64,000 nucleotides of DNA from Ectocarpus siliculosus. Taxonomy: Eukaryota > Sar > Phaeophyceae > Ectocarpales > Ectocarpaceae. The notes under the pieces are model-generated. The model was not told the DNA's origin and made no database searches. It saw only the letters and a list, made by a program, of their open reading frames with translations. The stretch covers positions 1,545,069 to 1,609,068 of the forward strand of contig FN649740.1 of assembly GCA_000310025.1 (NCBI GenBank), written 5' to 3'. Positions 33,997 through 62,010 of the stretch are shown piece by piece. A program made the translations under genes and the position numbers. Positions within the stretch are counted from its first letter, which is position 1, and each line of letters starts with the position of its first letter.

Positions 33997-34848
33997 CCGG
34001 AGAGATGGCACCCCCGTGATAACGTCCATTTTTGTGGTGTATTCCTCCACAATTAGGAGGGTGCAAAACACTAACCGATACCTCTCAGGAAAGCCCTCGA
34101 GGAAATGTGTCCACAACTACCCATTTCGGCAATGGTACCCCCCTGATTGTGGAGAAATACGCTATAGAAAAATGCTCCCACGGGGGTGCCATCTCTCCGA
34201 CGTTTATTTACGGTAGATGGTATCCATCGCGTAGATACCCGACCCACCAACGGGTCAAACATAGGCTACATGTCAAATGGGATGCAGATATCTTGGTGGA
34301 ACGAAATTATCAACCACACATACATCTATATAAAGAAGGAGGTGCACACACAAACACCTGGTCACCGCTCGTATGCGGACGAAAGTCATGGTCTCGGGCC
34401 GTTGGGTGGAGTGCATCACCATCTGGGCGGGTATATCTTGTAGAAATACACGGACCGCCGGCCTAGAGTCTTTAGTAGTCCGGGTGCAGGCAAGCAACGG
34501 ACTACTATACTGTTGTTGGCCGCAGCAAACGCTGTACGTGTATGTATGTAGTGTTTTCTCGTGTTGCCTGTGGGAGTGAGCGATATACCGTAATAGTCGG
34601 AGAGATGGCACCGGATGCAATCGCTTTTTTCCGTGTTTAGTCTTTATGTCGTTTTTTTTACGCACTCCGGTACCATCTCTCCGATCGGTGCCATCTCTCC
34701 GACCCCGGTACGGAAATGCAAGTAAATCATTTCATTTAGTTTTTTCAAGGCACCACGGTGCGATCTGTCCGACCGGTGCCATCCCCGATGAAATAGAATA
34801 CACACAGGTCAGGTGTTGTGTGCACGCACCCCGGTGCCATCTCCCCGA
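33997..34848. repeat. Cluster of eight GGTGCCATCTCTCCGA words
   Basis: The word, exact or nearly so, occurs at 34185-34200, 34669-34684, 34687-34702, 34757-34772, 34775-34788 (shortened) and 34833-34848 on the plus strand, and as its complement at 33997-34012 and 34597-34612. Spacings are irregular. The duplicate region (about 11285-12125) has the same arrangement with more mismatches. It is non-coding and could be a bank of protein-binding sites or remnants of a hairpin-rich element. Confidence 0.75.
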
Positions 34849-35046
34849 CCGGTACCATAGTATTGATACCAGTGTAGGCTTACCCACGCACACACACAGT
34901 CTTCTACACACGCTCGTTGACAATGCTATTGATCAGTATAGGCTAGAACCACACGTGTGTACCGTTGTTGCTGATTGGAAGCACACCAGTAACGGCGACG
35001 TAGGCTGATTCACGCGTGTCAGCTTCCTTCCGTGTTCTCCGCCGCC

Positions 35047-36243
35047 AGTTCTTCTTGGAGCTTCATGTGATGCTTAGTAGGTTGGGTTAAGCCTTCTTTC
35101 CTTCGGCCTCCCCTTGGTGGGTGCCTTTCCGAGGAGCTCGGGGGCCTGTGCGCGTGCCTCCCGCGGAGAGATTGAGAAGAAACCGGATGTAGTTCCCAAC
35201 CTTATCCTGGATGGAAAGGGCTTGATGCAAGGGAAACGGGCCTCTTTATTGTTGTTTCTCTTTCTGATGGCCCCATTGCTTATTATTTGGTTTCTAGGCC
35301 ACGGATTGGGGAGACAGAAGCACGGAGGACGCACATCGTCTCGCCGGCACATTGAATAGAGGCGTTAGACCGCGGTTCTCGCCCCACACAAAGATTACCC
35401 GCCGGCGGACAACAACTGCAAATGCAGGAGTCCCACAACCGACCAAGTCCCCCAATGGTGCAATCCATTCTACAACACCGACATCGAGTTCGTTTTCTGA
35501 CGACTGCCGTAAGTTCGACTTTCTGTTTACCTCCCCCCGGCTGTCTCGTGGCTGTTGTGATGCCATCTCCGTATGTTTCCAGTTTCCGCGACACCGGTCG
35601 CGACGCCACTGCTCTTTGTTCTTCTGAGCGTACGGCTTGTATGCATCCGATCTCCATCTTCCCTCTCTCTAAAGTGCTCGTTCTGCGATGTCTGCGCTTG
35701 ATTCTGAAGTCGTCGCTCCTCCAACCCTCCAACCGCAAGAAGTGGAACGCGTACTCCCGGGGTTTCGCCCCGACTTCGCAACCGCTGCACGGAGGGCAGC
35801 GCTATGCTTCTTCCTAGATTACCTTTGCTCTTCGCCATCAGGTCAACGTAGACGGCACATTTGTCGGAAGCACTTCTATCCTGCGCTGCCCGTACCGCAG
35901 TTACGGCGGGGGGGCCAGTATTGTTGTCGCGGTTGCCTTCGTGATGTACGAGACGCATCTTCACTGGCTAACGGATCTGCGTCCGGATCGGTATGGTGCG
36001 GCCTGAAGAATGTTGAGCTTGAGCCCTAATGAACAATTCCGGACAAGGTGGTCCGCATCGAGAGGACGAAGCGGATCGCCATTCATTTTCGTCCACACGA
36101 CCTGTAGTCGCCAAGCTGGGCCTCTGTTGACTTACTGCGATCCGTCGACCTACGGTCTGACCTCCTGTCACAGAATACATTGTCACCCGTGCGAGATGGT
36201 GCCCGTGTTTGTCTTTTTGCGACCAGACACTTAAACTACTACT
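35047..36243. other. Stretch without a supported gene
   Basis: Unique DNA right after the end of duplication copy 2. Several frames of 90 to 150 codons are open on both strands with biased third positions, but none shows a recognisable domain, and no splice-consistent chain was found. It may be degraded mobile-element sequence, since it abuts the retroelement fragment at 36244. Confidence 0.4.
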
Positions 36244-36530: not shown

Positions 36531-38990
36531 CCAAGAAGAACCCGGCAAGAAACCTGAGGGTCGACAAGGAAACTCCCGCTACACTGGGAGCAAACGGAAT
36601 GCGAAGATGGGTACCTAAAACAACGTGGGAGTTAAGGATATACCCAAAACACATTCGGAAGCTAAGAACTTTATGGCCTTAACCACAGGTTCTCAGTTTC
36701 GACGTGGTATGAAGAATACATACAGAACGGGCCCGCAATTAAGAAACATTATGTTAGGAAAAAGGGGCTCAACCTTTCACGAAAACTAAGAAAACAGGTC
36801 TAAGAAACTCAGCTCAATCTCGCCTACAACAACATAAGAAACGTCCCAATAAGAAACATGATCGGCAATACCCCCCAGATATACGAAGCAAGGGGTTACT
36901 GGGGGAACTTGTCCAACAAGAAAGGTCCCACTGATGATGCTGCTGCTGCCACACTCCAACCCCCTTCGTAGCTCATGTAATACTTTTTGGTAGGGGGGGG
37001 AGAAGGTTATTTTCGAGGCGCCCCCCGCGCCCCAGAGCCGCCGCGGGCTGCGCAATAACCACCAGCCCCTGCTGCTGCTGTACTGGTTTGTTGTTTTCTT
37101 CGCCAGCTTCTCCTCTTCCTTCCCTACGTTCAAAAAGAGAAGAAACGGCTTGACGTGTCCGTAATCCTGCGCATAAGAGAGTACACAAAATCAAGAATAA
37201 GAGGGTCAAGCGCAAGTCCACCACTAGGTTGAATAAGCTAACAATGTTGGTGGACTGAGATATGAATATAAAATACACACAACACAGATGAAGAAAGGAC
37301 CGAATCGCCTCAAACACTCAGTCGACAAAAGCGATGCACAAATAACGCGCTTGGTCACCAGCGACCTGAGGTGGATAAGTCGTCGTCGTCGAACTCCATG
37401 TTCGTACATCTTAACCTTGTTGCCCTCCGTATCTGCCAGAGAGGATTGGCCTACCAAAAAACACCTAGCTCATACCCTATTTGCATTCAATGACACCAAA
37501 CATAGGGCAGCAGGTGCTCATTGTTGTACACTCCTGGTAGCGTTGTTAGTTCATGCTTCCTCCATGTTATATGCTATTCTGGGATAGCCTCTCCCTGACT
37601 CACCAAGTCGTAACATTCCTCACTCCCTTTCTTGTTTACGGCGCTATTTGCAGCTTTATGGTTAATAACGCGCCGACAAAAAGCAGGTGAAAACGATATT
37701 GTATACATACACACCTTTCCTGGGGATATATACTGGAACTCTGAGCCTCTTCTCTCAACCACGCGTTGGCTTGCCTCTCGCCCAACGAGAACACAAACTT
37801 TAACACTGTGCGTGGTGCTCCTTATTTCCCGGCACTCCCCGCGCCTCCGCAAAAAAACACAAAACCACAGATAGATTTAATTCTTCTTGACGACTACTAC
37901 CAGGCAGGGTGTCTACTTGTATACACGTTGGTAGTAGGCTAGATCTTTTGGACTATAGTGCTTTTGCACCCTCTGATTGGTCGGGCGTTAGTTCCTACTA
38001 CAGCTGTAGTACGATCAGCGGCAACATCCCGGGACTGGATAATTTTCGGACGGTGGTGGTTGGAGTTAGTTGGTTTTGGCGTGGTTCAACGTGGTTGGCC
38101 TTTGGCACCGCCGTGCTGCGACGCGGCGGGTTTGTTCGGAGGTGGACATGTTTTTCCGGTCGGATGCTCCTTCGTTTTTCCCCTACGAATTTACGCGCCG
38201 CTCTCATGGCATGAGTCGCACCTATTTTCAGCATGTCAGCATCTATTTCTTGTGTTGAAGCGTACCTCCACTCATTCGTACCGCAGCGGTGTGTTGTGCG
38301 CGGGGGGCGCAACTGGGCGGTCACCCTCCTCGGGCTTGTTTCGTTTTTGATACTGGACGAGCACTCATCACTCGGAGTAGCTGTGTGCCAAGTTTCATTC
38401 AAACAGGACAACAAGGTACCTCTGCGTACGTACGGCCAACCTTTGATCCTCGCATCCGCGAGCTCCTTGAGTACTTGTGTGGACGGGAGGTGTCAACTTT
38501 GTGCGGAGAGCAGCACCGGCTCGTGAGGGGCGTTTCTGTCCGGTTGGTTTCGTCCGTGCTTGTCGCGGTTTACTGGCCCGGGTCTCCGCCCTTGTTTGTC
38601 ACACTACGCTCGGTCGCGAATACATCTAATCTCCTTTGGCACCGCCTCGCCACCTTAAGGTGGCGCAAGGGTTGACGACCTCGCCGGTTGCACGTCCATA
38701 CGCCATCAAATTGAATGTTCCCTCAATCTTGCTCGCCCTTCGTTGGGTTTTGTACTACTTTACATATGATGCGAGGCATGCTGCTTTCGACCCAAATAAC
38801 CATCCGTAGCAACCCTAAGTGCCAGCATACAAACAAAAAAACACGCTCGGAGTTGCGTTGGCCGTTGCTTGCTTGTGCAGCTGTCAAGTTTTCCTGGACG
38901 GTTAGACTCGACTCTCTTACAGCATCGATTCAACGCTTATTGCGATGGCCGTACAATACAACGAGCCTACGCTCTAGGCTGCACCGCTTC
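36531..38990. other. Stretch without a supported gene
   Basis: The first 400 bp is A-rich with recurring AAGAAAC words. At 37715-37850 there is an LTR-like fragment shared with 51610-51730. A plus-strand frame of 128 codons (38289-38675) is open but matches nothing I recognise. No splice-consistent gene was found. Confidence 0.4.
37715..37850. mobile_element. LTR-like repeat fragment A
   Basis: Shares GATATATACTGGAACTCTGA, then ACGCGTTGGCTTGCCTCTCG, then GTGGTGCTCCTTATTTCCC with 51610-51730. A TATATA box about 15 to 20 bp before the conserved block suggests the promoter and R/U5 part of an LTR, but no paired LTR or coding region is visible. Fossil fragment. Confidence 0.45.
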
Positions 38991-40689
38991 ATTTGTTGCC
39001 CTCGGTCCCATACGGTGGGGGCTGCGAAGGCAGAGCATCGCGCTGGTGTGCGTCGTAATGCGCATACTGTGGGGGCGACGGCGGGGAGTTTTGCTGGGCA
39101 GGAGGTGGCGCGCCGTGGGAAACGTTGCCTCCGGCAGAGTCGGCGACGAGAGGAGTGGACGTCCTGCTGCTGTTGATGTTCACTCTGGCCATGCTCCAGG
39201 CTGTCCCCATCGTAGGAAGGAGGGGCCGGCGGGCCGGGGTTCTTGCTCTTCGCGGCCCGTCGGCGACATAGGAAGAACCCCAGTGCTGCTACAGTAACGC
39301 CAGCGCGCAGGCCACAACGCCGACTACAACGCCCACCATCGTTGCTCCGTCTTTGTCCAGACGAGCAGCGGACGAGCAGCGGACGAGCAGCGATGAGCGT
39401 TGATGGAGGCGGGACTCCGACAGGCAAAGGCTGGTAGCAGGACAACGATTTCGACATATTGACCCGAACTATTGTAGGGCCGGTGTTTGCGATCTCACCG
39501 CCGCATCTCACAAGACTTCGTTTACAAGATGTGTGTGTGTGCAACCGCCCATTTTCCTAAAACAAACACCTAGTACTTTGGAGGGTCGATGGCAACCGGG
39601 GAGGGTCATTGTATCGGCTAAACTGGAGGAATTCCGAGCATCAGGACAACACCTATACACCAGGAAGGTGGAAGGCCTCCCGCTCTCAAACGTCGCCCAG
39701 AGACTCTTACGGCCACGGTCTGACCCTGCCTACGGTAGGCGCAAGCTGAGCGCGTGTATTTTGGTCGGCCCAACAAACTATTGAACAAGCGAGCGTCCAA
39801 TCCTACGGAAGAGTACACCGCAGGGGAGTTCGACAAGGGGAACGATGAAAGGGTCGGTTTAATAACGTCAACACTGAGTCGCAAGGGAAGAAAACCCGGC
39901 TAACCGCTGTCGGCAGACAAAACGCGAACGAGACCGTAACACACACACTTCTTCATGCGGGTTTCACTGCGGGTGTACGTCGGCAAAGCCAAGCTCGTCT
40001 GCATCGTGACGCCAGGTACTCTTCCACAACGCAACCGTTCTAATCCTGACGCGACCCGTGGAAGGACGGTGACAGGGGATGGTGTGAGAAAAGGAGAATT
40101 GAGGTCGAGAGTATCCCATGCGAGACAGCAGTGCCGAGCCATTTCACCTACTTAGAACGAAAACATAGGCGCCTTTCGGTCGCTAATTCGCGGCGCCATG
40201 TCGCGTTGGCGAGATTATTCGGCGCCAGACACCACCACTGTAAACTATCCTCCCTTCCTCTTCAAGGCAACGTCATGGAGAATGCAAGATTTCGCCGAAA
40301 ACGATCATCTCCATATCAACCACGAGGTTGGGAGGTTCTTGAAAAATATGAAAAACAATTTTTTCTGAAATTATACGACCATGATCCCTACACAGCGTGT
40401 CGGTACGCACGCAAGCAAAATTGGGCGGGAAACAGCACTAGGGGAAGCTGAGACTCCTCGTTCCCTAGCGGTGATGACTGCTTGCCCCGTGATATGCAGG
40501 ATAGAATAACGTAGCTTTGAGGAGGGCGGAAGGTTTTGGCTGCGGAAATATATCACTCCGGATGTCATTGAACTTGAAGCTTGGAGCAAAACCGGGGATA
40601 TGTCAATGTTCGACGGCTTCGTTCCTGTTTTTGACGATATGGCACGCCCCAGTTGAACGGGAGATGCAGCAACTAGTTCGGAAGCTTAC

Positions 40690-40776
40690 TTTCTGAGCTC
40701 GAGCCGAGTACCCGCGTAGGTTGTGCGGCAGATCCTGACGTGGCCGCAGGTGCAGCCCCAGGTGCAAGTGTGGCCC
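40690..40776 (-). CDS. Stalk exon of the truncated receptor
   Basis: An 87-nt minus-strand exon, acceptor GGCAG|GGGCC and donor GAAA|GTAAGC, phase 1 at both ends. It encodes an Ala/Pro/Ser-rich juxtamembrane segment (ATLAPGAAPAATSGSAAQPT). Homologous exons lie at 60891-60979, 61634-61720 and 61882-61980. Confidence 0.55.
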
Positions 40777-41293: not shown

Positions 41294-41340
41294 CACATTC
41301 GTAAACGTTTTCATCAACGTCGAGGTCGCCATCTTCCACC
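41294..41340 (-). CDS. Small acidic exon of the truncated receptor
   Basis: A 47-nt exon between TTCGCAG and GTGAGTGG, reading VEDGDLDVDENVYECG. A relative lies near 63350-63395 (VEEDGLEVDAYCDECG), where the donor GT is followed by TAATGG. The Asp/Glu pattern with a single Cys could be part of a calcium-binding or EGF-like module, but it is too short to assign. Confidence 0.4.
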
Positions 41341-41998
41341 CTGCGAAGTATGCACAGGAGGTACGAACGATACGGTGCACAGTCTAAGCAAAAAGGCTTC
41401 GTTCAATCTATGTGATGCTAGGGATCCATGAACATGCTCCGTGGGCAAAGCACAATCTCCTTTCTGTAACTTCAACCGAATATACCATGCAGTGTTTTGT
41501 CGTGCTATGAGCCCACGCGTGCTCGATCAAAACTCGTTGTGGGCCCGAACAATATGGCCAATGCGATATCTCAAGCGGCTGAACGATTCATTCTTGTTCT
41601 ACGAATCACGGTTTGGTCAACATTCTAAGAATGCTACAGTAAGACGCATTCGTCCGATATCACGAGCAGCAGCGAACAACAAATGGTGTGCCGGTTGGCC
41701 TCGAATCTACGAGATGCTGGCCAGAACCCCAAACTCGTAATACTGCCCAAATTGTTCAATTGATCTGGATTTCAAAGCGATCGATCGGTGCGTATTTAGC
41801 GTTCCTCACTGTGGTGTTGAGGGCACGCACTCCAGAGAGTTTCCTTCCAGGTCCCTGAAGTTCGAACCCCGAACGAGATTCATTCATTCGCCGGCGCAAG
41901 ACCGGACGAGAACGGGAGATGCAACAACGGATCAAGCGTTGTGGAAGGAACAACAAGATAAGCATGGTTGCAAAAAAAGATACAAATAGATAGTTGTA

Positions 41999-43323
41999 TA
42001 CTTCCTCTGTCTCGTAAGTCTGGGAACTTGTGTTGGGAGAGACCGTTAACCGTCTCGGATGTCTAGGGCGATAATTTTTTCGAGATCTTGAGCGTTAGAC
42101 TAATTGGGTTGAAACACATTATTTTTTTTTTTCTTCCGCACTACCCTGCATGGGCCAGCGGCTACTAAAAAAGTAGTAGGGCCTAAAATGGCCGTATTTG
42201 ACCCTTTTCCAGAGGGGGGGGGGCGGGGGCACTATGGAAAAACAAACAAAAAAAAAACAAGAATTATCCCCACCCTAAACCTAGCCCCTCCCTCCTCAAC
42301 GACCCATGTCCCGTCCCCCTATACTAAAACCAGTATAATAATGAACATACACTAATAAAACCAAGACGCTTTTAGGTCCCACACTAAAACCAAGATGTTA
42401 TGGTATTTGGAACCTTGGACTAAGATACCATCTGGGCGGGTATATCTTTCCGGAATATCCCGACCACCTGCCCAGGTTCCCAGTATTCCGACTTTAGGCA
42501 GGTAGCAGTACAATGGTTACTAGCAGTAGCAAGCGAGTGCAAGCGTTCCACCTTGCTCAGTGTCTTGCCTGGGAGTGAGCGATAGCGAGCGACTGAGAGA
42601 GAAAGGAAGGATAAGGAAGGAAACAGACTGAAGAAGCGAAGCGGCTCCAACCTGCACACAGTGGTCGGACTAGCTCCACACTAAACCCGCGTCACATCTC
42701 GTCACATCTCGTCACAAAGACACTTGCGGGGCAAACCAAACAACGGTACAGGGCCCTATCCCAACCCCCGCGTATCCATGTGGCTTCCCCCTGTACTAAA
42801 ATCAGTATAATATCGACCCCACACTAAAACCAATATACTTGGGGGGACCACACTAAAACCAAGACACTTGGGACCAACACCGTACTTTTCGCAGATCGGG
42901 CCCATCGAGCCCTTGGGCACCCGCACGTTGCCCAACGGAATAACCAGCGCAACCTCCACCGCAATTGCAATGCGGCGGCCCTCTGATAGCTCTCCACCCT
43001 TACAGCGGGAAGGGGGGGTACTCGGGGGCGAGTCGATCGTCGTCTGTGGTCTGTGGGCTTGGTTTAGGGGTGGTAAACACGAATTCTCATGGAAATTCGA
43101 AAAAAACTCCCTTAAATATTCCGAAAAATAATTCTCAAAAATGGGCCAAAATGCGCATATTTTGACTTCATTTTAGGATGGACAGCGAAGTTTTTTTTTT
43201 TTGCATCAGCTTTGTTGGCGCTTCGTCTTTCCAACGAACCCAACTATACGATGACCGGAGTAGTGTGCACACCCTAACAATTAAAAGTCCATAAGTTCCC
43301 AGACTTACGATACAGAGGAAGTA
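41999..43323. mobile_element. Non-autonomous TIR transposon, Tc1/mariner-like (MITE type)
   Basis: The ends are terminal inverted repeats of about 31 bp starting TACTTCCTCTGT, with one mismatch between arms, and flanked by a TA duplication (41997-41998 and 43324-43325). The 1325 bp interior holds poly-T stretches near both ends (about 42122 and 43190), a cluster of ACTAAAACCA words, and a block (about 42427-42600) related to 11709-11890 and 34417-34600. No transposase frame is present. TA duplication and TIR form fit the Tc1/mariner superfamily; the element interrupts the truncated LRR receptor. Confidence 0.85.
42320..42870. repeat. Recurring CACACTAAAACCARNAYRCT words inside the TIR element
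   Basis: Six related words (ACTAAAACCAGTATAATA or CACACTAAAACCAAGAC) occur near 42325, 42350, 42380, 42795, 42817 and 42848 in two groups of three. They are subterminal-type repeats, as often seen in DNA transposons. Confidence 0.7.
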
Positions 43324-43401
43324 TACGTGAGGAGCCGTCGCCAAACACAGCAACAAGTCATGACCACAGCACCACGCCGATGAGGGTCGAGGAGAGCGAA
43401 A

Positions 43402-43866
43402 ATGCTATTAATAGTACAAGAACAGGACGGCATTCCACCATTCACACTGTCTTGCTCGGGGGGGAATCTATGGACTCCTCCTGAGATAGAAGACAACCTT
43501 GCCTGGGAAAGGGAGAACTTTGAGTACAATTGGAGGGACTTGAGAAAGGAGTTTTGTAAGAGGGGCACCCAAAAGGCGGGCCATGTTGGGAAACTGAGCA
43601 TTTTTCCCCGTAACCTTGAATCAACGTGTATCATGATTCCCGACTCGTGTTTACTACGACCACATTTCCTGGATATGCGGGTGTTCGTTTTTTACTGGCG
43701 TAAGCAACAAAGGATCTACCAGAGAACCGGCAGATTGGGGACAGCTGCCAGTGACACCGATAAAACTATAGACACAAGTGGGGGTGTGATGTCATGCCCA
43801 ATGCAGGCAGGCCTCAGTGTATTTGGCAGGTACGCCGTAAGCTGCAACGACGAGGATACAACATGA
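43402..43866 (+). CDS. Open reading frame of unknown function
   Basis: A 154-codon frame reading PPFTLSCSGGNLWTPPEIED and NWRDLRKEFCKRG. I do not recognise it. It is on the opposite strand to the LRR exons, between the TIR element and the first LRR unit, and could be chance or a transposon remnant. No splice or start context supports it. Confidence 0.2.
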   Translation: MLLIVQEQDGIPPFTLSCSGGNLWTPPEIEDNLAWERENFEYNWRDLRKEFCKRGTQKAGHVGKLSIFPRNLESTCIMIPDSCLLRPHFLDMRVFVFYWRKQQRIYQRTGRLGTAASDTDKTIDTSGGVMSCPMQAGLSVFGRYAVSCNDEDTT

Positions 43867-44486
43867 CCCGGGTACAAACGTACCAATCATCCATCATTCT
43901 CGCTACAGCTGAGGCGAGCGAGTTGGCCGTCGTAACCCGGTTCAGGTTGCATGGCGTATGCCGCGGATCGGATAGGAGATTAGGATATGAGGCAAGTGAG
44001 GGCACCACCATGTGAACGGTCTACTGTCAACTCGAGGAAGGGACAACCTATCCCGTTAGGCAATGCGATACGATATACTTGGGTACTCGCGTTTTTAGCC
44101 ACGCCGAGATCGCCTCCTTCTCTCGATCACCTCAACAAACGCATACATCCGGTGGATGTACCCGCAAATGGCCGAATGAACGCACATTCAAATCGAAACT
44201 GTCCAACTCTTATGTATGACAATCATCCCAACGCAAGCTTGGAGACAGTGCAGCGGCTGGGGGTAGACGTGATAGCTGCAGCGAAACTGCGGTGCTTAGG
44301 TTGGAGCTGGTCTTGGGGCTCCCTGACCTGTGTTACATCGAAATTCCTACCACCTGCGCTCCAGCGCGCTCGTTGGGGTGTAATAGTTCATGGGCACGAT
44401 TGGTCTACGGTGTTTGTGTTCCCCATCGCAGGTTCACCCCATGCGGAAAAGCGCCCTTCCGACAACCATGTCGAACAACTACTTAC

Positions 44487-44558
44487 AGATATTCCAAGGC
44501 CGTAAGATCCCCGAAGATTCCCTCGGGGAGGGCGGTGAGGTTGTTGTTGCCCAGGTAC
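44487..44558 (-). CDS. Single-LRR exon 4 of the array
   Basis: 72 nt, acceptor TAAG|GTACC and donor ATCT|GTAAGT, phase 2 to phase 2. Encodes YLGNNNLTALPEGIFGDLTA then LEYL, one complete 24-residue LRR with Leu, Asn and IF positions intact. Confidence 0.85.
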
Positions 44559-45293
44559 CTTACGGTGTCGAGGGAAGGCCACGAGCGGAGCAGAGAACAC
44601 GCGTTAGCTAGGAATAAGTGTTTGCTGTCGCACATGGTGATCTACAAGGCGCGGCGATCCCACCAACGTGCACCGAAGTTGTTCTGTGCCGCTAGCAAAG
44701 TCACGATCTCTACGCCGCCGCGTGGTGATCTGGGCACGATCTTACCAATATACACGTAACCCGTTCCAGGGCTGCAATGCGTACACCGTCGATCGGAAAA
44801 GAGGTTGGCGTACTTGCACGAAGCAAGTGAGGGCACCACCATGTGAGAGGTCTACCGTCAACTCGAGGAAACGACAACCTATGCCGTTAAGCAATGCGAA
44901 CTTGGGTACTCGCGTTTCTAGCCATGCCGAGATCGCTGCCTTCTCTTGATAAGCTCGACAAATGTACACGCACAAGGCCGGATGAAACCACGCTCAAATC
45001 GAAGTTGACCGAATAGTGTGCTTGGCAAGCAAAATGACCCCAGCGCCCAAGCTTCGAGACAGCGCAGCAATGGGGAATAGACGCGACAACCGCAGCGAGA
45101 CTACGGTGCGGAGGTTGGTCTTGGCGCGCCCCGACCTGTTCTACAACGAAATCCTACAACCTGCACTCCAGGGCGCTCGTTGGGGCTTAGTTGTTAATGC
45201 GCGCGATTGGTCTGTGGTATTTTTGTTCTTCATCGCAGGCTCATTCCATGCAGAGGAGCACCCTACCGGCAACCATGTCGAACAACTACTTAC

Positions 45294-45365
45294 AGTCCTT
45301 TAAGGGCCGTAAGACCCCCGAAGATTCCCTCAGGCAGGCTGGTGAGCTCGTTGTCATACAGGTAC
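45294..45365 (-). CDS. Single-LRR exon 3 of the array
   Basis: 72 nt, acceptor CGAAG|GTACC, donor GACT|GTAAGT, phase 2 to phase 2. Encodes YLYDNELTSLPEGIFGGLTA then LKGL. Differences from its neighbours fall mainly at exposed positions of the LRR (after YL, before LP, last triplet). Confidence 0.85.
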
Positions 45366-46131
45366 CTTCGGGTGCAGAGGGCGAGGACACGAGCGGACAG
45401 AGAACACACATCAGCTAGGAATCAGTACTTGCTGCCGTACACGGTGATCTATGAGGCGCGGCCTGCCCGCCAAAATGCACAGGCGACGTTCTGTGGCACT
45501 AGCAAAGCTGCTGCTTGGTGACCGGGGTACAATCATAATCATACCAATCATACCTTATTCCAACTACAAGCGACTGAGTGGCCGTCGCAACCCGTTCCAG
45601 GGTGAACTGCGTAAACCGCGGATCGCATCAGAGGTTGGAATATGAGGCCTGTGAGGGCATCACCACGTGAGAGGTCTACCGCCAATTCCAGGAAACGACA
45701 CCTATCCCGTTACGTGATGCGATGCTTGGGTACGAGCGTTTCTAGCCACGCCGAGATTGCCTCCTTCTCTCGATCACCTCAACAAATGCTTACATCCGAC
45801 GGACGTACTCGAAAACGGTCGATTGAAAGCACATTGAAATCGAAAGTGACCCAATTGTGTATATAACAATCATCCCAACGCAGGCTTCGGCAGTGCCGCA
45901 GTGGGGGGTACACGCGATAACCGTAGCGAGACTTCGGTGCATAGGTTGGAGCTGGTCCTGGGCCACCTCTACATGTTGCACACCGAATTTCTTACCGCCT
46001 GCATTCTGGCGCGCTCATTGGGGCTGAATGGTTCATGGTCACGATTGGTCTGTGGTATTTGTGTTCTCCATCGCAGACTGGCCCCATGCGGAGGAGCACC
46101 CTACCGACAACGATGTGGAACAAATACTTAC

Positions 46132-46203
46132 AGCCATTCCAAGGTCGTAAGACCCTCGAAGATCCCCTCAGGCAGGGTGGTGATACCGTTGGAATAAAGT
46201 TGC
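46132..46203 (-). CDS. Single-LRR exon 2 of the array
   Basis: 72 nt, acceptor CAAAG|GCAAC, donor GGCT|GTAAGT, phase 2 to phase 2. Encodes QLYSNGITTLPEGIFEGLTT then LEWL. Confidence 0.85.
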
Positions 46204-47008
46204 CTTTGGGTGTCGAGGGAAGGCCACGAGTGGAGCAGAGAACACGCGTTAGCTAGGAATCAGTGCTTGCTGCCGCACATGGTGGCCTAAAAGGCACGGC
46301 CAGCTCATAAACATGCACAGACGACACAGACGACGTTCAGTGCAGTGGCATTAGCAAAATCACGGACTCTAAGCTGCCCCGTGATAACCTCGGTACTGTA
46401 TAATCATACCAATCATACATCCTTCCCGCTGCAACTGAGGCGACTGAGTTGGCCATGGTAACCCGTTCCAGGGTGAATTGCGTACTGCGGACCGGATAAG
46501 AGATTGGAATATGAGGCAAGTGAGGGCACCAACATGTGGAAGATCTACCGCCAATTCCATGACGGGACAACCTATCCCGTTACGTAATGCGATGCTTGGG
46601 AACTCGCGTTTCTAGACACGCCGAGATCGCCGATTCTCTCGATCACGTCCACAAATGCTTACATCCGATGGATGCACGCGAAACACGGCCGAATGAGCGC
46701 ACATTCAAATCGAAGTTGACCGAATCGTGTGTTTGACAATCATCCCAACGCAGGCTTCGACAATGCCGCAGTGGGGGGTAGACGCGATGTCGGAAGCGAG
46801 ACTTTGGTGCGTAGGTTGGAGCTGGTCCTGGGCCACCTCCACATGTTGCACACCGAAATCTTACCACCTGCATTCTGGCGCGTTCGTTGGGGCATAGTCT
46901 AATGGTTCATAGTCACGATTGGTCTGTGGTATTTGTGTTCTCCATCGCAGGCTCACCCCATGCACTGGAGGAGCATCCTACCGACAACCATGTGGAACAA
47001 CTACTTAC

Positions 47009-47080
47009 AGGGTTTCCAAGGCCGTAAGACCCCCGAAGATTCCCTCAGGCAGGGTGGTGAGCTCGTTTTCGCGCAGGCCC
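47009..47080 (-). CDS. Single-LRR exon 1 of the array
   Basis: 72 nt, acceptor CGAAG|GGGCC, donor CCCT|GTAAGT, phase 2 to phase 2. Encodes GLRENELTTLPEGIFGGLTA then LETL. It is the first array exon after the N-terminal exon ending at 47941, whose phase it matches. Confidence 0.85.
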
Positions 47081-47940
47081 CTTCGTGTGTCGAGGGAAGG
47101 CCACGAGCGGAGCAGAGAACCCACATGAGCTAGGAACCAGGGCTTGCTACCGCACATGGTGATCTACTAAGCGCGACCAGCCTACCAACATGCACAGGCG
47201 ACGTTCTGTGGCACTAGCAAAGTCACGGCCTCTTACGACGCGTGGTGATCTGGATCAGTCCTACCAATCATACTCCACTCCCACTACAGCAGTTGGGGCG
47301 ACTAAGTTGGCTGTCGCAACCCGTTCCAGGGTTGCATTGCACACACCGCGGATCGGATAAATATTAGAATATGAGGCCAGTGGGGACACCACCATGTGAA
47401 AGACCTACTGTACCGCCAACTCGACGAAACGACAATTTATCTCGTTACGCGATGCTTTGGTACTCGCGTTTCTAGCCACGCCGAGATCGCTCCTTCTCTC
47501 GATCACCTCAACAAATGCTTACATCTACCGTAAATGCCTGAATGTACGCACAATCAACAAATCAAAATTGACCGACTCGTACGTTAGACAGACAAAACCA
47601 TCGAAGCGTAAGCGTCGAGACTATGCAGCGGTTGGGGATAGACGCGATAACCGCAGCGAGACTACGGTGCGTAGGTTGGAGCTGGTCCTGGGCCACCCCC
47701 ACCTGTTCTACAACAAAATTCCTATCAGCTGCTTTCTGGCGTGCTCGTTGGGGCTTAATGGTTCATGGGCACGATTGGTGTCTCGTGGTTGTTGTTCAGG
47801 TGAGAATAATGCACCTTGCAGTTCGAGTCTATCCCTCGCTCAAGCTGGGGGGTATCAATGCAGCACCTTGCAAAGGCCACTTCGATCAAATGTGCCAAGC
47901 ATCTGGCCATAATAATAAGGCTTGGCACATTAGCACTCAC

Positions 47941-48210
47941 AGATGTGTGATTGTTTCTGGTCCGGCAGCTTCCAAGCATGACGCTATGTCGTCGAAATCG
48001 GCATCTGTTACGCCGCAACCGTGAACGATCCTGGGATAAATGAGATCGCACACACCAAACGGCGGCGGGTCAAGTCTTGCTCTATGTGAGGTGCGGCGGC
48101 ATCGTGCACAGTAAGAGCGCGAACATGCGTGGATGAAATAGCATGCCAAGTGCTCCGAACTCAAAATACCGCCGTTTCTCGACCAACGCGTATCGGAGGA
48201 TTAGATTGAA
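47941..48210 (-). CDS. N-terminal exon of the LRR gene (5' boundary uncertain)
   Basis: The minus-strand frame is open from about 48210 to a donor CATCT|GTGAGT at 47941. It reads FGVCDLIYPRIVHGCGVTDA, then DFDDIASCLEAAGPETITHL, which resembles the start of an RNI-type LRR (VTDADFDDIA, ITHL). It ends in phase 2 with CT, exactly as the LRR exons do, so it can join the array directly. Its own acceptor was not identified, so the upper limit is approximate. Confidence 0.5.
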
Positions 48211-49290: not shown

Positions 49291-50030
49291 TCAATGGTAT
49301 TTATTCCCAAGATCCAGCAGTCACCATGTCAGCAGCTAGGTCAAACAATTGCAACATCTACACATCATAGCTCCCACACATACCCTCGCCCGACCTAGAA
49401 AGACACTACTGTAGGTGTGTGTGTGCTGGTATGCTCGTGTGCTCGTGTGCTTGTGGGAAAAACGCAGGAGCTCTATAATAGTGAGTCGGCAGGGCAACAG
49501 AGTACTACAGTACAAACACCAGCTAAATTCATCTGGCCCTTCAAGCCCTCTCGTTGATCATTTCCATTGATCATCGTATAATACTAAAAGTAGAGTCGTT
49601 GAGGCAGCCNNNNNNNNNNNNNNNNNNNNNNNNNNNNNNNNNNNNNNNNNNNNNNNNNNNNNNNNNNNNNNNNNNNNNNNNNNNNNNNNNNNNNNNNNNN
49701 NNNNNNNNNTCAATGGTATTTATTCTCAGGATCCAGCAGTCAGCAAGTCTGCAGGTAGGTCAAACAAATGCAACATCTACACATCATCGCTCCCACACAT
49801 ACCCTCGCCCGTCCTAGAACGACGATAAGGGAATTGTGATTCCTCTGATTTGCGGGCGAATTGGGCTCTTTGGAGGCAAGCTCCAGCGGCCGTCTGATTG
49901 CGAGTAGGCGTAGCATCCGACGTGTACCGTACAAACGCCAGCTAATTTCATTTGTCCATTCAAGCGCTCTGGTCGCTCACTTTCATTGATCCTCGTCTCA
50001 TAGTAGAAGCAGAGCCGTTGAGGCTGCCAG
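49291..50030. repeat. Tandem repeat of about 420 bp, two copies around an assembly gap
   Basis: Unit 1 (49291-49609) and unit 2 (49710-50030) share TCAATGGTATTTATTC, CAACATCTACACATCAT, CCCACACATACCCTCGCCCG, ACCAGCTAA(A/T)TTCAT and GTTGAGGC(A/T)GCC. The 100-N gap lies between them, directly after GTTGAGGCAGCC of unit 1. A partial CCACACATACCCTCGCCCGA also occurs near 49160. Confidence 0.85.
49610..49709. other. Assembly gap (100 N, size probably nominal)
   Basis: Exactly 100 N between two tandem repeat units; a round number usually marks a gap of unknown length. Confidence 1.
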
Positions 50031-50085: not shown

Positions 50086-50478
50086 TGTGTGGCGGAACAA
50101 GGAAAGTTTGAGAGCTGTGCTATGGTTTTGACCACCGAGACGAGTTGGCCCTTGGTGGGAACACGTGGTACAGTACTTCAGCAGTACACCCATCGATGGC
50201 GTTCCCCAATGTTGCTCGAACCCACCCACCCACCTGCGGAGGTAACCGACAACGATGAGAGTCCCAGCAGAACGACCAAGAGCATCTCCAACATTCTCCC
50301 ACGCCGTGTCCATGATGACAGAAAATATGAGCTGCACGTTTCGGGAAAGGACGGCGTGGACGGATTGAACAAGGAACTTCTTCCGCATCGTATGATATTC
50401 GCCGGCCACACAGCGAATCCGACAACAGCATTTATTTTGACACTCCACCGGGGGAACAGATGCACCAACCAGTCTTGA
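50044..50478 (+). CDS. Open reading frame, signal-peptide-like start, function unknown
   Basis: A 144-codon frame starting MMRCLAASTALLLPCVAEQG. The signal-peptide look comes from the right arm of the foldback repeat, so it may be coincidence. The complementary strand also has long open frames. No domain recognised. Confidence 0.2.
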   Translation: MMRCLAASTALLLPCVAEQGKFESCAMVLTTETSWPLVGTRGTVLQQYTHRWRSPMLLEPTHPPAEVTDNDESPSRTTKSISNILPRRVHDDRKYELHVSGKDGVDGLNKELLPHRMIFAGHTANPTTAFILTLHRGNRCTNQS

Positions 50479-52757
50479 AGATCATCTTGAAATACGTATT
50501 CCGGATACATGTATGCGTATGTACCGAGGAATAGATTAGGATCGAATAGAGCAGCGGCCCCACACTCCGCAAATTGGACCTAAATTGGACTACATACGTA
50601 GCTGCCGCCATTACCACTGCTGCTGACGGCCAGCAGTTCCGGAGTTCCGGAGATCCAGGTCCGTGGGTGGCTGTTACAAAGTCGTGTGTCGGTCCAATAC
50701 GACAACGTGTGTCGGTCCAACACGACCGTAATGATATGCTGCCGAGCGCCGAATCTATTATTCACAAAGAACAACATTTTTTTACCCCGAGGTGCAGGTG
50801 AGATTGCAGGTGAGGTGAGATTCGAATGTACCCTCGACAGCAGTAGATCTGAACGTGCCATCACAAATTTCACCTCTGCATGTTGTCCTTGGAAGATAGA
50901 AAGGTGCTTTTCGTGTTGGTGGGACATATTATCTATCTGTGTGAGTGGCGAAGAGAGTTGGGTTTTTTCCCTACAGAACACGCCGGGAGCACCGGGAGCG
51001 CCGAGAGCGCCGAGAGCGCCGTTGTGTGTTGTCCATACTGCTGCAGGAGGCGGCTTTGAAACTTGAAATCCAAATCAGGGTTGGCATTGGTCATGCTCTG
51101 GTCTTGAAGACAAATCCCTAGCTAGGCAAATTGGCGCAAGGCCCAAGCGGCGTTTTCAGTCTTCCGTGACGGACTCGACAAACAACAACGGCGGTGGTCC
51201 GTGAAATCAAAACGACACAAGCACCCAAAGAGGACTGGTACCTCATCATGGTGACGCGATCGATCCCGCTGGGGAGGGGATTCAGAGACAGACCAGACCT
51301 GGCCCCTCACGGTTCCTCGCTAGGAACTGACTGTTTTCGACTGGCTGATCTTGATCCTGTGGGGAGCTCGAACGACGGGATGAGAGGTCGGATGAGAGGA
51401 TATACTGCTGGTTGCATGCAGCTGGTTATGTGTTGTGCGGGGCAGCTGGTCGAAAGTTGTGGTCTCCATGTCAGAATGTATATTTCTTGGGTCATTCTTT
51501 GGGAATTGCAACGAATTCTTGGGGAATTGGGAAGCTCTCATCTCTCATCCCTCATCCCTCTTCGCCCCGGCCGAGGGCATACTGTAGTCTAGCCTACATA
51601 CAAGGCTTGCACCTTACCTCGGTATATATACTGGAACTCTGAGCCTCTCTAGCACGCGTTGGCTTGCCTCTCGGAGAGCACAAACTTGACACCGTGGTGC
51701 TCCTTATTTCCCCGCATCCTTCACGCCTAGGTAGCAAGAATACATGCTGTGTATCGTACCATCAACATTTTTCTGCAAGCAACGAAAAAAAACGAGACAC
51801 CTGAAACAAAGTGAGAGCGAAGTTAAAGCGCCTTCTTGCTCCCAATGTGTCTTTTATCGGACCGCTACTACCTTAGTAACCTGCCTGGATTGCCCTACTA
51901 ATATTCTTCTTGTATGTTCGGACCCTTTACGGACCCTTTACGAAGGTGATCTCCATCTGGCCCAAACAGAACTTATGCACTTTTATTTATATAGACGATG
52001 ATCTTCTTACCGGAATTCTTACTCCGTAACCAATACAAAGTCTAGTCTAGTTCCTCGGGTTCAGTGAGGCCCGTGACACGAGCCTCATGCCATCCGCCCA
52101 GGATCTGAAGTTGCGACCTTAGCAACTCCCACCCTGCTTACATCTTGTTAAACCGTTTTTTTACTGGATAGATATATACCCGACCCGTGAATCGTCTGGG
52201 TCTGGGTCTTGTGTACGAAACACCGACGGGCCATGAGCGCTGACAGCATTTCCCCGCCGCATTATCTATCCCGTCTCTCTCTCGCAGCCACGGGCTCAAA
52301 CACTCTTGCGCTCGTGCAGTCCTCCAAGTATGTGTTCCACATTTTGGGTACACTTTGTTGGTACCACTGCCTAATGACCCGAACGTGAGGGTGTCAGCCA
52401 ACCGCCTTCCCTCTTCGCTCGTGTTGGCCCGGCCGTCCTTCTCTTGTGTACCTGATATTATTTCATTGAGTACAATACAGAAATACACGAAGCTTACGGC
52501 GGGAACACAAATTCGAGGGACCTCCTCTGAACGCGCAAAATATCCACGCATGCATGCCGTTGAATAGCCCCAGAATAGGCGAGAGGGGTAAGAGAATCGG
52601 TCGTCCGAACCGTATCATCTTCCCAAGGCCAAAGACATTCCATCAAGACGTGTCAAGTCAGTGAGTGGTTGTGGGGGCGTGCCCACCGCTCCCTCTTTCT
52701 CGGGACTATGATTCGTTGACCAGTTATGTGCAGTAGTTCGTTTTAAAGGAAGAATAA
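50479..52757. other. Stretch without a supported gene
   Basis: Contains an LTR-like fragment (51610-51730). Just after it a plus-strand frame reads CSQCVFYRTATTLVTCLDC, a CxxC pair spaced like a small zinc-binding motif, possibly transposon-derived, but it is too short to call. A minus-strand frame of 137 codons (52138-52551) is open without a recognised domain. Confidence 0.4.
51610..51730. mobile_element. LTR-like repeat fragment B
   Basis: Matches 37715-37850 (TATATACTGGAACTCTGAGC, GCGTTGGCTTGCCTCTCG, TGGTGCTCCTTATTTCCC). Direct orientation, moderate divergence, no partner LTR seen nearby. Fossil fragment. Confidence 0.45.
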
Positions 52758-53269: not shown

Positions 53270-54109
53270 GGGTGGCAGCAGGCGTCTCGTTAATAATAGC
53301 TAGCTAAAGTTGGGTGCTCATCGTATTGCTTGTCGTTCATTTCCCTGCGACCCGTGAAGGGGGCCTTTCTTCCTTACCGATCGTATCTTCGCCGACCCTT
53401 GCCGTTGATAGTTTCGGTCCCCCCGTAGTCTCTGTTCTTCTACGGTTAGTTACACAAAAGAGATGCTGCTGCAAGCGTGCCCGGTCGTCCCTGGTCGCCC
53501 CCACGGACTTCACGTCGCCGAGCCGTCGGGGGTGATACTGCACCTGTCACCACTCGTTCTGACAAACCGGGGGGCCTGATCAAGCTGTTCAAAGCGACGC
53601 CTGTCTAGCCTCCTGGAAAGTGAGAGCTACAGTAGAGCGGAGACTACTTCCCTCGCCGCACCTTCTCCCCCAGGGAGAATTGACTGCCGATCTCGTTCGC
53701 TCCCTCTAGGTCTTACAAGATCGTGGCCTCCTAGAACACGGACTATACCAGCGAAAACTCCCCGATCGACACACCATCTTCTCACGTGCAGCACCATCGG
53801 CTCTCCGACAGCCCGCGGCATTAACTCTGCTTTTGGGATTGGCCATGCCGGAACCAGGGAGGTTGTGCCTATGATGGCCGGCACCTGGCCGAGGCCAATG
53901 ATACTGGAGGAAGGAGGCGCCTACACACAACCCAAACGCAGAACTGTAGTCGCTGTGCCAACAGTTCAACCCCTGATCCATGTACGATACCGAAAACATC
54001 AAAATAACGATACAGATCACGGTTGGGTGTATCGTCTCAATGGAAACTAGAAGATGATACGTATCAGGGTCATCCCCGAAGTTTTACATGCGTTTTTCGA
54101 AATCAAGAG
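53270..54109. other. Stretch without a supported gene
   Basis: Lies between the unknown frame ending at 53269 and the kinase stop codon. Short open frames occur on both strands; none has a recognised motif. It should include the kinase 3' untranslated region. Confidence 0.4.
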
Positions 54110-56110
54110 CTATTTCTTCTTCAAAGCCGTCGGTCGGACTTTCCCCCCATTGCAAAACACTGAAAACGTAGGGCGGTCCATGGGCGCCTGGGCCCAGCAG
54201 CTGCGCACCATCTCTGCGATATCTAGGGGGGCGTCCGCGGGAATTGCGGGGCGTTCCTCGCGCATGACAACACGGAGGTAGATGTCTCGAGGCCGAATTT
54301 CGTTCGCCCAAGGTATCTGTCTTGTCAATACCTCCTACACCACCATCCCAAAGCTGTAGACGTCGCTCGCCTTGGAGGTTTTACTGGACTCCAGCACCTT
54401 CTCGCGCGCAGATGGAAGAAGCGAATGTCAGACGCGCAATCACAACGCCGAAGGGGGTGGCATGCACAGTGCAATTTACATCCGAATCGCAACATAGCCC
54501 AGTACACGTTTGCAACTACTAGTGTTGAAGGCCTTCCTATGTTTGTTTTCCTTCTAGGATCGCTGGATCGCCGGAGCGCAATCGACGAGAGAGCAGCACC
54601 GTCAATTTCCCAATTGGCCCATTTCGGATGGATGCCCGCCCGACTAAGCACCGCCCACATAAAGCACCAAGAGCACCGGGAATCTGCCTCAGTGCTCTCG
54701 TGCAGCCGGTATTGACACGGCAGAGGCACTGTCTATTGCTTTGAAGCAGAACGCGTGATTCTAGAGGGCTCTGGTGATGCGTGCTTTGCACCGTTTCCGG
54801 AAACAAGTCAGCGACATGTGCTCCGGTTACAACCATCGACATCCACTCAGCAACGCCCATCTAGTTTCGCACTTGGGTGTGGCTAAGGTCTCTCATAGTA
54901 GAGTATTGTAGTCCTGCTGGAGTCAAGCTGATCTTGTTTTGAAATTCGTTTGAAATCCCTCAAACCGTCGTGACGTACACACACTAGCCGGCGCGGAGCA
55001 GCGCCAAGAATGTTGACATTTTCATCTACAGAGTGCAGGGACCTATAGATGATGGGGCACGGACGCACAGCAGCACCAACATTTTCTTGGGAATCGCACA
55101 ATTTGAGCGGGGGTGCGCCAGCACCAACGGCCCTTGGTACATATTTTTTCTTGTTCGCAATGGCACCACAAGAGACAACAATCGCCACAATATAGTTCTC
55201 CGTTGGAGAAGAAGTAACAGCTGGGGGACAATTTCAAAGGCACAGAGACGACGTCGAGCTTCCAAGACCAAATTGTTGCACGAAACGCCAACGTACGCAA
55301 ATGGCTGACAATATGCAGCGGATAGTTTCGAGAGCACGTCATTCCGTCTTGATTCTCTGCATGTATCACATGACCTTCACACCTTCAAGCCGTGCGGGAA
55401 TTCAGCACAAAGTGCATCTCAACCGCAATGAATTTGAGCGCGTGCATTCGTTCGGTTCACAGGCGTATTTGGTATTTTTCCAGATCAACAGAGGCTCATA
55501 CCCCGCACCTCGTCCTTGTTGGTACCAACCGTCCGTAAAAGCCCATCAGGGAAAACGATAGAATCACAGGCCGTCTCCTCACCTCTGGGGCAGTCCATGC
55601 AAAGCTGACGTGGGCACTTGGTCCCGGATTTGTGGTGGAGGTGGCAAGGCCTGTGGATCTCTCGGTGTTCTGAGCCCACCTCGACTTGCCGAAGTCCCCA
55701 ATCTGGAGGGACAACATGACGCATCAGCAGGATATGAAACTATGTATTGATATGTAATTTGTGGTCCATAGTTTGGGTTTGAACTTCACTTACTGTACAC
55801 AACCGAACCCATTTGCAAATGTATGGAATATGAGGAACTGGGTAGAGCCGGCTCTTTCTTCCGTATGATTTAACACCACCACAACCACCAGCTCCACCAC
55901 AGACAACAACAACAACCACTACATGACAGCCATCCTGTAGCGACAGATGTAGACAAAGGGGGTGTATGTTTCTCGTCAGAGCCGCGGCGACAGGAACGCG
56001 GGGTACGTCCACAACCCTTCGAAAGAAAGGCGGGGACCAAAACCAGCGCGGAAATACGACAAGATCTACAGCACTTGTGGCACAAGACAACCCCCAGACG
56101 CCCAACATGC

Positions 56111-56900
56111 CTTTGCCCTTCCGCGGCCATCCAGAAGAACGTTGGCAGACTTAAGGTCGCCATGCACCGTCGCCTTGCTGTGCAGGAAGGCCATCCCCGC
56201 GCATACATCCTGGATGATCTTCCGGCACTTATCCTCGGGAAGCGGGTGCTCAAAGTTCTTCAGCATGGCCCGAAGTCACCGCCCGCGAGCAGCTCCATGA
56301 CCAGAACCAGGCGGCCCGGCAGCGAGGTGATCGCCCCGTAGACGTTGACGGTATGAGGGTTTCTCAGGCGAATCATGGCGTCCAGTTCGCGCAGGAATGC
56401 CTTGCGCTCGGCCTTCTCCCGCAGTGCGTTAGACTCGCCCATCCTTGGCCCACTCAGTGGTATGTCGCTCTCTCCCGGCTTCCCGAGACCGTGGGTGATG
56501 TGCTGTACCTGTATCGTCCAGCCATACCACCGTTGATAAGAAACCGAACAAGAATCAGACAGAGCACGACAGCGGGAAACAAACAAGGGGTGGAAAATGA
56601 CTCCTGCGGGTGGTTGGGTGTTGGTGCTTCCGCTCCCCAGGCATGCCCTACTCGGTCGCTCGGCGGTACTTATTACTCCCAGCTGCTTTGGTCTACCAGT
56701 CGAGCATGGCTTACGCACACCTTCGCCGCGTTGTGGCCGTTGTAGTCGGCCAGGTACACCACGCCAAATCCCCCCTTTCCCAGCATCTCGTTTGTGATCG
56801 ACACGTGGTCCTCGGGGATTTCGATCTGATCAAGCTTTCGCTGCCGCCTCGACCTGCGGGCTTCAGCCAGAGATTCCGCCTGAGCCTCCGCCGTGGACCT
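56111..56900 (-). CDS. Kinase N-lobe and catalytic-loop exons
   Basis: Exon 56721-56900 carries the glycine loop and ends at the catalytic lysine (NAAK). Exon 56111-56508 starts VQHITHGLGKPG and carries the helix-C glutamate (FLRELDAM), hinge (LVLVMELLAGGD) and catalytic loop HGDLKSANVLLDG. The frame changes after GGD, consistent with one missing base; the rest then reads in the new frame to RAK before a GC donor (AAAG|GCATGT). Confidence 0.7.
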
Positions 56901-57681
56901 CTGTAATATAGAGACGAACGTCAAGTCATCAAGAGGCACATGTCCAAACACAAATCGTTAAACGCTGCTTGACTGAACCCTCCCGACCCATAGGAAGGGA
57001 TTCGGTCTAAAGGTGAGGCGAGTCGGCGAAGAAGGTGGAAACGGGGTGTCCTCGAAAGGGCCCTGTACATGGCTTATCCCGTGGTTAGTACAAGCCACCG
57101 AGGCGCAACCTGCGGCGGGCTATGCATACAGCAGCAACCGCGTTGGAATTCGAAGGATTCTGCATAGAGTTCGCTTCATCTCCGTGGCACGTCCTCACCT
57201 CGACAAGGTGCGCCACGTCGTGTCGAACCTGCCCAACGTCGTGCCCCACCTGCGCAACGTTGTGTCCCACCTGCACCTGCAGGCCCAACTGGGCGACACC
57301 AAGCAGCCAATATGGAAACCGGCAGGCGGTAACGCGACAACCGAGGTCAGAACACCCTGTACAAGTCGGTCGACGTGAGAAGCGCCATGAGGCAACCTTA
57401 CATTCGTCCGATGGAAACCGTTCCAGACCCCTCTACGAGGAATTCCCACTACGTGTACCCCGCGTTGCCAAAAGCAAAATCGTGATTTCTGAAACGGGAT
57501 TACAAGTCCCCAAAACCCCGCATAGACGTTTCTTTTCAATGAACGACGTGCACAGAGCGAGCCCTTAGAAGAAGCTAGACATGAGAGAGACAACAACGCA
57601 TGTTTTAGCGCAGCTGGCTGCGCAGTCGAGGAAAAATCCATACTCAATATAGCGCATTGCTTTGTGGTACACGGCACTCAC

Positions 57682-57873
57682 GTGCAGGCCCCAGATGGCC
57701 CTGTCCATAACCGCGTTCAGCTCGTCCTGGCGCCGCTTGAACAGGGACGATGTCAACACCTGGGCGAGTTTGCTCTTGTTTTGGAAAGTTTTGATCAGCT
57801 CCACGAGATCGGAGACGGCGTCGTGCACTTCTTCGATCAAAACGCGCTCATCCTCTTCGCTCGTGTCGCCACC
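57682..57873 (-). CDS. Exon of the MLKL-like four-helix region
   Basis: 192 nt, acceptor CATGTAG|GGTGG, donor CTGCAC|GTGAGT, phase 0. Encodes VLIEEVHDAVSDLVELIKTF, then QNKSKLAQVLTSSLFKRRQD and ELNAVMDRAIWGLH: amphipathic helices with Leu/Val/Ile at three- to four-residue spacing, typical of the N-terminal helical bundle in front of fungal, plant and algal TKL kinases. Assignment is by pattern only. Confidence 0.65.
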
Positions 57874-60800: not shown

Positions 60801-61633
60801 ATGTCAATGCTCGACAGCTTAGTTCAGCATGTAGTCAATACGGCATGCCCCAGTTGAACGGGAGATGCGGCATCAGGTTCGGAAGCTTACCTTCTGAGCT
60901 CGAGCCAGGTGCCAGTGTAGATTGTGGGGCAGATTCCGGCGCGGTCGCGCAGGTGCAGGCGCAGGCGTAAGTGTGGCCGCTGCCTCTAGATACCAGGTTG
61001 ACGTGAAGGATTTATGTGGGTTGGACAAGCAAGAGGTTCGCCGGTACTCATGCTTCACCCTACCTCCTGCCGAAGGAGCGGGAAAGCCAAGCCAGCAAGC
61101 CAAATACGACATGCGACCTTCCTTGGTGGCATGGATGCGTGCACTCAATCAGCTGGAAGAACAATCACACTTTCGGAAGACTCACTTTGCTTGAGAGAGT
61201 TCTTCAAAGAATGTTATGGGTTTGGAGACAAACGACGGTCGCACATGTAACCTACGGCATTCCTGCAGGCACAGCGGTTCAGGCACTCTCGTTAGGGGTT
61301 ATCACACCATAGACCATGACCCTTACACAGCGGGTAGAAAGCACACAAGGAACGGAGGTCGGAAACGAGCACTAGGAGAAACTGACACCCTTCGGTCACT
61401 AGCGGTGTAGTCTCCTAGCCCCGACATAGGCAGGATAGAACAACGTAGCTTTGAGAACGGCGCGAAGGCGGAAGGTTTTGAGTGCGGCAAAGTACCACTC
61501 CAGATGGTAGTGAACTGCGAATGTTTGGAGCAAAGCCGCGGATATGTCAATGTTCGACGGCTTAGGTCCTGCTTTTACCAGCACGGCATGCCCCAGTTGA
61601 ACGGGAGATGCGGCATCAAGTTAGGAAGCTTAC

Positions 61634-61980: not shown

Positions 61981-62010
61981 CTGCGAGATAGCAAATTGGT
62001 GGGAGTTCGA

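Follow-up and report, generated by a model that had tools for sequence, protein, structure and literature searches.

On the minus strand of a 64,000-nt stretch of Ectocarpus siliculosus DNA (GenBank assembly GCA_000310025.1, contig FN649740.1, positions 1,545,069 to 1,609,068; hereafter the window), four exons of 72 nt, each encoding one leucine-rich repeat (LRR), form a tandem array within the predicted ectodomain of an LRR receptor-kinase-type gene that would extend from about 50.3 to 39.0 kb. A single open frame can be read through this ectodomain, with its splicing inferred. The best explanation of the whole, which we consider probable, is an old array in a receptor-kinase-type ectodomain that experienced past selection at its strand sites and decayed later.

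The array itself is real and well seen. When both strands of the window were scanned for AG-72nt-GTRAG with an open phase-2 frame, 14 matches were obtained, of which only four encode LRRs:

47080-47009, minus strand: LRR exon L1, 72 nt, phase 2 in and out, one LRR (pattern scan, profile search).
46203-46132, minus strand: LRR exon L2, 72 nt, phase 2 in and out, one LRR (pattern scan, profile search).
45365-45294, minus strand: LRR exon L3, 72 nt, phase 2 in and out, one LRR (pattern scan, profile search).
44558-44487, minus strand: LRR exon L4, 72 nt, phase 2 in and out, one LRR (pattern scan, profile search).

GTAAGT stands directly 3′ of each exon, and the exon starts are spaced by 877, 838, and 807 nt. 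The encoded repeats are of the type LxLxxNxLTxLPxGIFxxLTxLxxL, and their full codons occupy nt 2-70, with the exon boundary cutting the first leucine of LxLxxN. Pfam LRR_8 matched the joined ectodomain with an E value of 1.8e-30, and LRRC15, LGR4, and lamprey VLRs were among its best matches in PDB (best 60 of 398). No fifth LRR exon was found in the window with nucleotide or protein profiles of L1-L4, each of which returned four matches, the next best having E values of 2.8 (DNA) and 1.7 (protein). A preliminary description made from the sequence had reported four phase-2 exons of 72 nt with one LRR each, in units of 0.80-0.87 kb, and the scan, the donors, the profiles, the LRR_8 match, and the spacing bear out both statements; its proposal that such an array can gain or lose repeats without frame damage is supported by the symmetry of the single-LRR exons. 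The exon-core DNA pattern had no exact match in the searched collections of genome contigs and viral contigs, and the joined LRR protein matched two loci at 41% identity among 18 stretches of viral contigs.

The exons lie in repeat units whose introns retain a record of their age:

43864-47797, minus strand: repeat array of four exons and five homologous introns, with periods of 877, 838, and 807 nt and intron identity of 0.72-0.85.

All five introns (the one before L1, those between the LRR exons, and the one after L4) are homologous, and the closest pair are those after L1 and L2; this comparison covered the first intron from 47926 (14 nt within its donor) onward and the last as far as 43800. 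Homology begins at 47797 in the first intron, which is without the 5′ part of the unit, and stops near 43864 in the last, which is without the 3′ part. For this reason, the fifth unit said to be truncated before its exon can be recognized as the first intron, a partial unit. Within 300 nt of the exons, the introns diverge by 10-23%, with 2-9 indels per pair and side; L1-L4 differ mutually by 18-29% with no length change, and 78 of the 792 windows of 72 columns in the four-unit alignment are gap-free. The suggestion that the array had been caught in the act of duplication did not hold, as intron identity between units of only 72-85%, along with the divergence of the flanks, indicates that the duplications are old and not ongoing. 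As far as the sequence tells, the units are old duplicates and not an array now expanding. Growth would have taken place long ago, most likely through unequal exchange between homologous introns, and, judging from the anatomy, each exchange would have added or removed one 24-residue repeat and left the frame unchanged.

The exons predicted around the array, together with an element that interrupts the intron after L4, are the following:

50230-50294, minus strand: putative first exon, predicted, with start codon and signal peptide (MLEMLLVVLLGLSSLSVTSA, then GG), phase 2 out.
47941-48030, minus strand: predicted LRR N-cap exon, 90 nt, phase 2 in and out, with two cysteines, ending ...PETITHL; acceptor CATTTATCCCAG, donor GTGAGT.
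41810-41854, minus strand: predicted LRR C-cap exon a, 45 nt, phase 2 in and out, (L)DLEGNSLECVPSTP; counterpart at 63899-63855.
41294-41340, minus strand: predicted LRR C-cap exon b, 47 nt, phase 2 in and 1 out, VEDGDLDVDENVYEC; counterpart of equal length at 63394-63348.
40690-40776, minus strand: predicted stalk exon, 87 nt, phase 1 in and out, Ala/Pro/Ser-rich; three tandem counterparts in a second copy of the gene.
41996-43326, no strand assigned: element between 37-nt terminal inverted repeats that are 95% complementary, inside the intron after L4.

Nine predicted exons (signal peptide, LRRNT N-cap, four LRRs, two LRRCT C-cap exons, and stalk) join into one open frame of 207 aa, and the combination of a signal peptide with an LRR ectodomain, as in an LRR receptor kinase, is present in the predicted exons and the Pfam matches. 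The exon ahead of the array had been said to end in the same phase, and this is true of the predicted N-cap exon. The first exon is the least certain of the model: it was picked by eye after a scan of 52000-48040 gave 10 hydrophobic N-termini, five of them with a phase-2 donor, and its signal peptide was also judged by eye. The intron that follows it contains a 100-N gap (49610-49709), near which the segment 49979-50107 is nearly palindromic, with 82% identity to its own reverse complement. The element after L4 is presumably Tc1/mariner-like, going by its end sequence. A weak WSC match (E 0.0066) fell below the Pfam cut-off, and the GC content of the whole window is 52.8%; like the exon design, both agree with a brown-algal origin without proving it.

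The assignment to a receptor-kinase-type gene comes from a second, paralogous copy about 20-22 kb from the array copy, which carries the same C-cap, stalk, and membrane exons. The segment 39037-41955 matches 59255-64000 in the same orientation at 77-80%, except for about 1.9 kb (61174-63031) found only in the second copy and containing two extra stalk exons. The second copy comprises:

59646-64000, minus strand: 5′ part, with three stalk exons and both LRR C-cap exons.
54100-59645, minus strand: 3′ part, with a membrane/juxtamembrane exon and then TKL-like kinase exons near 56.86, 56.43, 55.7, and 54.4 kb.

Both of its C-cap exons have the lengths and phases of those in the array copy (45 and 47 nt). 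Against Pfam kinase models, three of the five second-copy kinase pieces passed one or more of the curated cut-offs, and plant and animal TKL and tyrosine kinases were closest to the last piece among solved structures (best 60 of 474). The stretch at 57.87 kb had no significant Pfam match, and a kinase piece compared with viral contigs found no locus among 12 stretches. Because the array copy is paralogous beyond the LRRs to a copy that continues into a TKL-like kinase, the array is assigned to a receptor-kinase-type ectodomain. The preliminary description had placed it upstream of a stalk and a membrane segment in such a gene; the stalk stands as a predicted exon and the link to a kinase gene stands through paralogy, but the membrane segment is frame-broken and does not stand. 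Several points weigh against this assignment: every splice site of the model is predicted, we infer the joining of the second-copy membrane exon to the kinase exons, and any LRR exons of the second copy would lie beyond 64000, outside the window.

Where the array copy has one stalk exon (40776-40690), the second copy has three in tandem at 60891-61980, with lengths of 96 or 99, 87, and 89 nt; the 89-nt exon is out of frame. This gives the gene family another array, one whose exons are mostly symmetric. This tripling suggests that the whole ectodomain, and not the LRRs alone, was assembled from symmetric exons. Separately, 51610-51716 and 37712-37834 match at 80% and might mark the 3′ flanks of both receptor copies; this is a single 123-nt match and was not used.

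Differences among the four LRR exons follow the structure of the repeat. Summed over the six exon pairs, Nd/Ns reached 0.49 for variable codons but 0.036 for the scaffold, which had been chosen from the data; the test was repeated with positions not chosen from these exons. The differences bear out the earlier claim that copies differ mainly at exposed LRR positions. Neutral simulations were run on a tree from the flanking introns, with each of the four exons as ancestor and 10,000 runs, and were repeated at 1.3 times the branch lengths. At the canonical LRR positions, which we take from the general consensus, 0 of 32 residues are lost in L1-L4, and the absence of any loss or stop was reproduced in only 24-41 of 10,000 neutral runs per ancestor (3-9 at 1.3 times). 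Excerpts of Teng et al. 2024 (PMC11378527) give sites 14, 16, 18, and 19 as positively selected in the LRRs of brown-algal ROCO genes. At these four sites, fixed by that paper, L1-L4 show 10 of 12 possible changes, a level reached in 1-3 of 10,000 neutral runs (10-23 at 1.3 times), and an alternative set of four strand positions shows nine changes, reached in 19-41 (79-153 at 1.3 times). The excess of change is confined to strand positions. As a point on the other side, all 15 non-canonical positions taken together show no significant enrichment, their 18 changes being reached in 697-962 of 10,000 runs (2,993-3,710 at 1.3 times); with four exons, the test is also small, and the introns may not be wholly neutral. 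Since the scaffold residues were kept and the four sites changed beyond the neutral expectation, the array once functioned. Selection would, on the neutral simulations, have kept the LRR scaffold and favored change at strand positions expected to face a ligand.

Downstream of the stalk, the array copy is no longer intact:

39037-39430, minus strand: broken membrane/juxtamembrane exon, with an 11-nt length difference, a frame break in the hydrophobic segment, and an 8-nt deletion.

The length difference precedes the hydrophobic segment and the deletion follows it; the segment itself changes frame midway in both copies, leaving no intact in-frame transmembrane segment. Small introns inside the membrane region were considered as well and were dropped by eye on the sequence, with no program used. 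The homology of the array copy to the kinase copy stops at about 39037, and no recognizable kinase was found when nine open pieces taken from the exons at 54-58 kb in the second copy, including two read off frame, were searched against 30-44 kb (best E 0.43). The second copy has lesions of its own: its kinase frame breaks near 56.27 kb and is interrupted by a stop at 54337-54335, where aligned solved kinases continue, and the donor of its second C-cap exon reads GTTAAT versus GTGAGT in the array copy.

Loss of the membrane segment and kinase could instead have left a secreted LRR protein that works as a soluble decoy or co-receptor, to which we give a minor but appreciable chance. When the stalk is read on into the membrane exon at 39430, a stop is reached ahead of the hydrophobic stretch, giving a protein of 242 aa in which a signal peptide, two cysteine-bearing caps, and four intact LRRs share one predicted frame. 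However, its tail resembles a shifted frame, and the model depends on predicted splicing. An unseen exon between 40690 and 39430 could also alter the frame into the membrane exon, which counts against decay of the membrane region as we read it.

That the receptor genes are intact and their breaks are sequence or assembly errors is improbable in our view, although some of the breaks affect just one base or a few, two N gaps interrupt the scaffold, and both the LRR exons and the membrane exon show past constraint. Identity between copies is 0.91 and 0.88 in the membrane and juxtamembrane parts of the membrane/juxtamembrane exon, versus 0.80-0.83 in introns, which suggests that this region was under constraint for part of the time since the copies duplicated. 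The lesions are varied: lengths have changed by 8 and 11 nt, the kinase contains a stop, a donor is altered, and one copy has no recognizable kinase. In a recent duplication of 1-9 and 21-30 kb used as a control of sequence quality, three of four open reading frame (ORF) pairs were without a frame-breaking indel. Decay is more likely than error on these grounds, though not proven. Weighing against constraint and decay are that the C-cap and stalk exons are no more similar between copies (0.79-0.82) than introns, that synonymous (0.133) and nonsynonymous (0.131) differences are equal in the juxtamembrane exon, that indels of 1, 2, and 15 nt separate the two members of the fourth control pair, the second of which was positioned from rough coordinates, that coding status was shown for none of the four control pairs, and that the lesions could be assembly errors. 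The control duplication spans 1-8950 and 20996-29906 and is 93.7% identical over about 9 kb, and further matches link 9015-12325 to 31651-35048 at 73-87%. The sequence of events that we favor is that the array copy would later have lost any recognizable kinase and its membrane frame, and that the kinase of the other copy would also have gained lesions. Most likely, the locus holds a decayed member of a birth-and-death family of LRR receptors, one that would be secreted at best.

ROCO genes with one-LRR exons were reportedly described in brown algae by Zambounis et al. in 2012. In the excerpts of PMC11378527, each ROCO LRR exon is 72 bp long and "in phase 2", with 23 residues at nucleotides 3-71, and the exon data are derived from general feature format (GFF) files; the 3-71 numbering would correspond to GFF phase 2, that is, intron phase 1. 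As the selected ROCO sites match the x of x-L-x-L-x-x-N, the ROCO exon boundary would fall after N-x-L-x. In L1-L4, the same four sites sit at positions 23, 1, 3, and 4. Our exons are thus like the ROCO exons of these excerpts in being symmetric, 72 nt long, arranged in tandem arrays with one LRR each, and diversified at the same four strand sites. They are unlike them in having full codons at nt 2-70 versus 3-71 and a boundary elsewhere in the repeat, a comparison made with the paper's description and not with ROCO sequences. A ROCO exon as described there would fit neither the frame nor the register of our array. Unlike ROCO genes, the array gene also has a secreted-type ectodomain with caps and a stalk. 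No ROC or COR domain was seen with Pfam on 15 chosen pieces (not all frames), and what lies downstream is homologous to a gene with stalk, membrane, and kinase parts.

It had been proposed that the ROCO exon-shuffling system supplies this gene, which is doubtful, as the phase and register both differ from the excerpted description and make a shared exon pool unlikely. The fuller version of this idea, in which the ROCO/LRR pool itself supplied the gene, the array is active, and the receptor works, seems to us quite unlikely. It draws on the shared exon length with one LRR each, on the same four diversified strand sites, on an intact ectodomain frame, and on 15 non-ROCO sequences with shuffling LRR exons, most of them LRR-only, reported from Saccharina japonica in the excerpts of PMC11378527. 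Beyond phase and register, the age of the units argues against an active array, and a frame-broken membrane region with no recognizable kinase in the array copy argues against a working receptor. Judged against those excerpts, the array is probably separate from the ROCO exon pool and looks like a parallel system, although the Saccharina sequences lower the novelty of such exons outside ROCO genes.

Carrying the idea of an old array in a receptor-kinase-type ectodomain further, we tentatively propose, while recognizing that it may well prove wrong, that brown algae run a second modular LRR exon system, distinct from that of ROCO genes in phase and register, that builds the ectodomains of surface receptor kinases, with members that vary at the same ligand-facing sites, are gained and lost rapidly, and give rise to secreted forms that have no kinase. 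If this is true, two independent symmetric-exon systems would exist, one in intracellular ROCO candidates and one in surface receptor kinases. The one-repeat-per-exon design would be a general route to variable receptors in brown algae, with selection pressure comparable across both systems, and phase and register would tell from which pool an LRR exon came.

Besides ROCO genes, the closest known systems include the brown-algal LRR receptor kinases, of which excerpts of PMC3268121 list two genes in Ectocarpus; excerpts of PMC8307928 describe receptor kinases with LRR ectodomains as having evolved independently in brown algae. Our locus is like them in that its paralogous copy has an LRR C-cap, a stalk, a membrane exon, and a TKL-like kinase, and unlike them in that the array locus is degenerate. 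The words "exon", "intron", and "phase" are absent from the excerpted text of PMC3268121, which gives no exon layout to compare, and no mention of 72-nt LRR exons in brown-algal receptor kinases was found in titles and abstract openings among the literature matches listed, with subscription journals and supplements outside the scope. At the sequence level, the LRR type is like that of LGR4, LRRC15, and lamprey VLRs (PDB matches, best 60 of 398). Animal LGR and glycoprotein hormone receptor genes have LRR exons of similar size, all in phase 2. Exons and phase 2 introns of the LH receptor are also mentioned in the excerpts of PMC11378527. Unlike glycoprotein hormone receptors and LGRs, the gene described here would have combined its LRR ectodomain with a single membrane span and a kinase, and not with a seven-helix domain, and we claim no common origin for the two.

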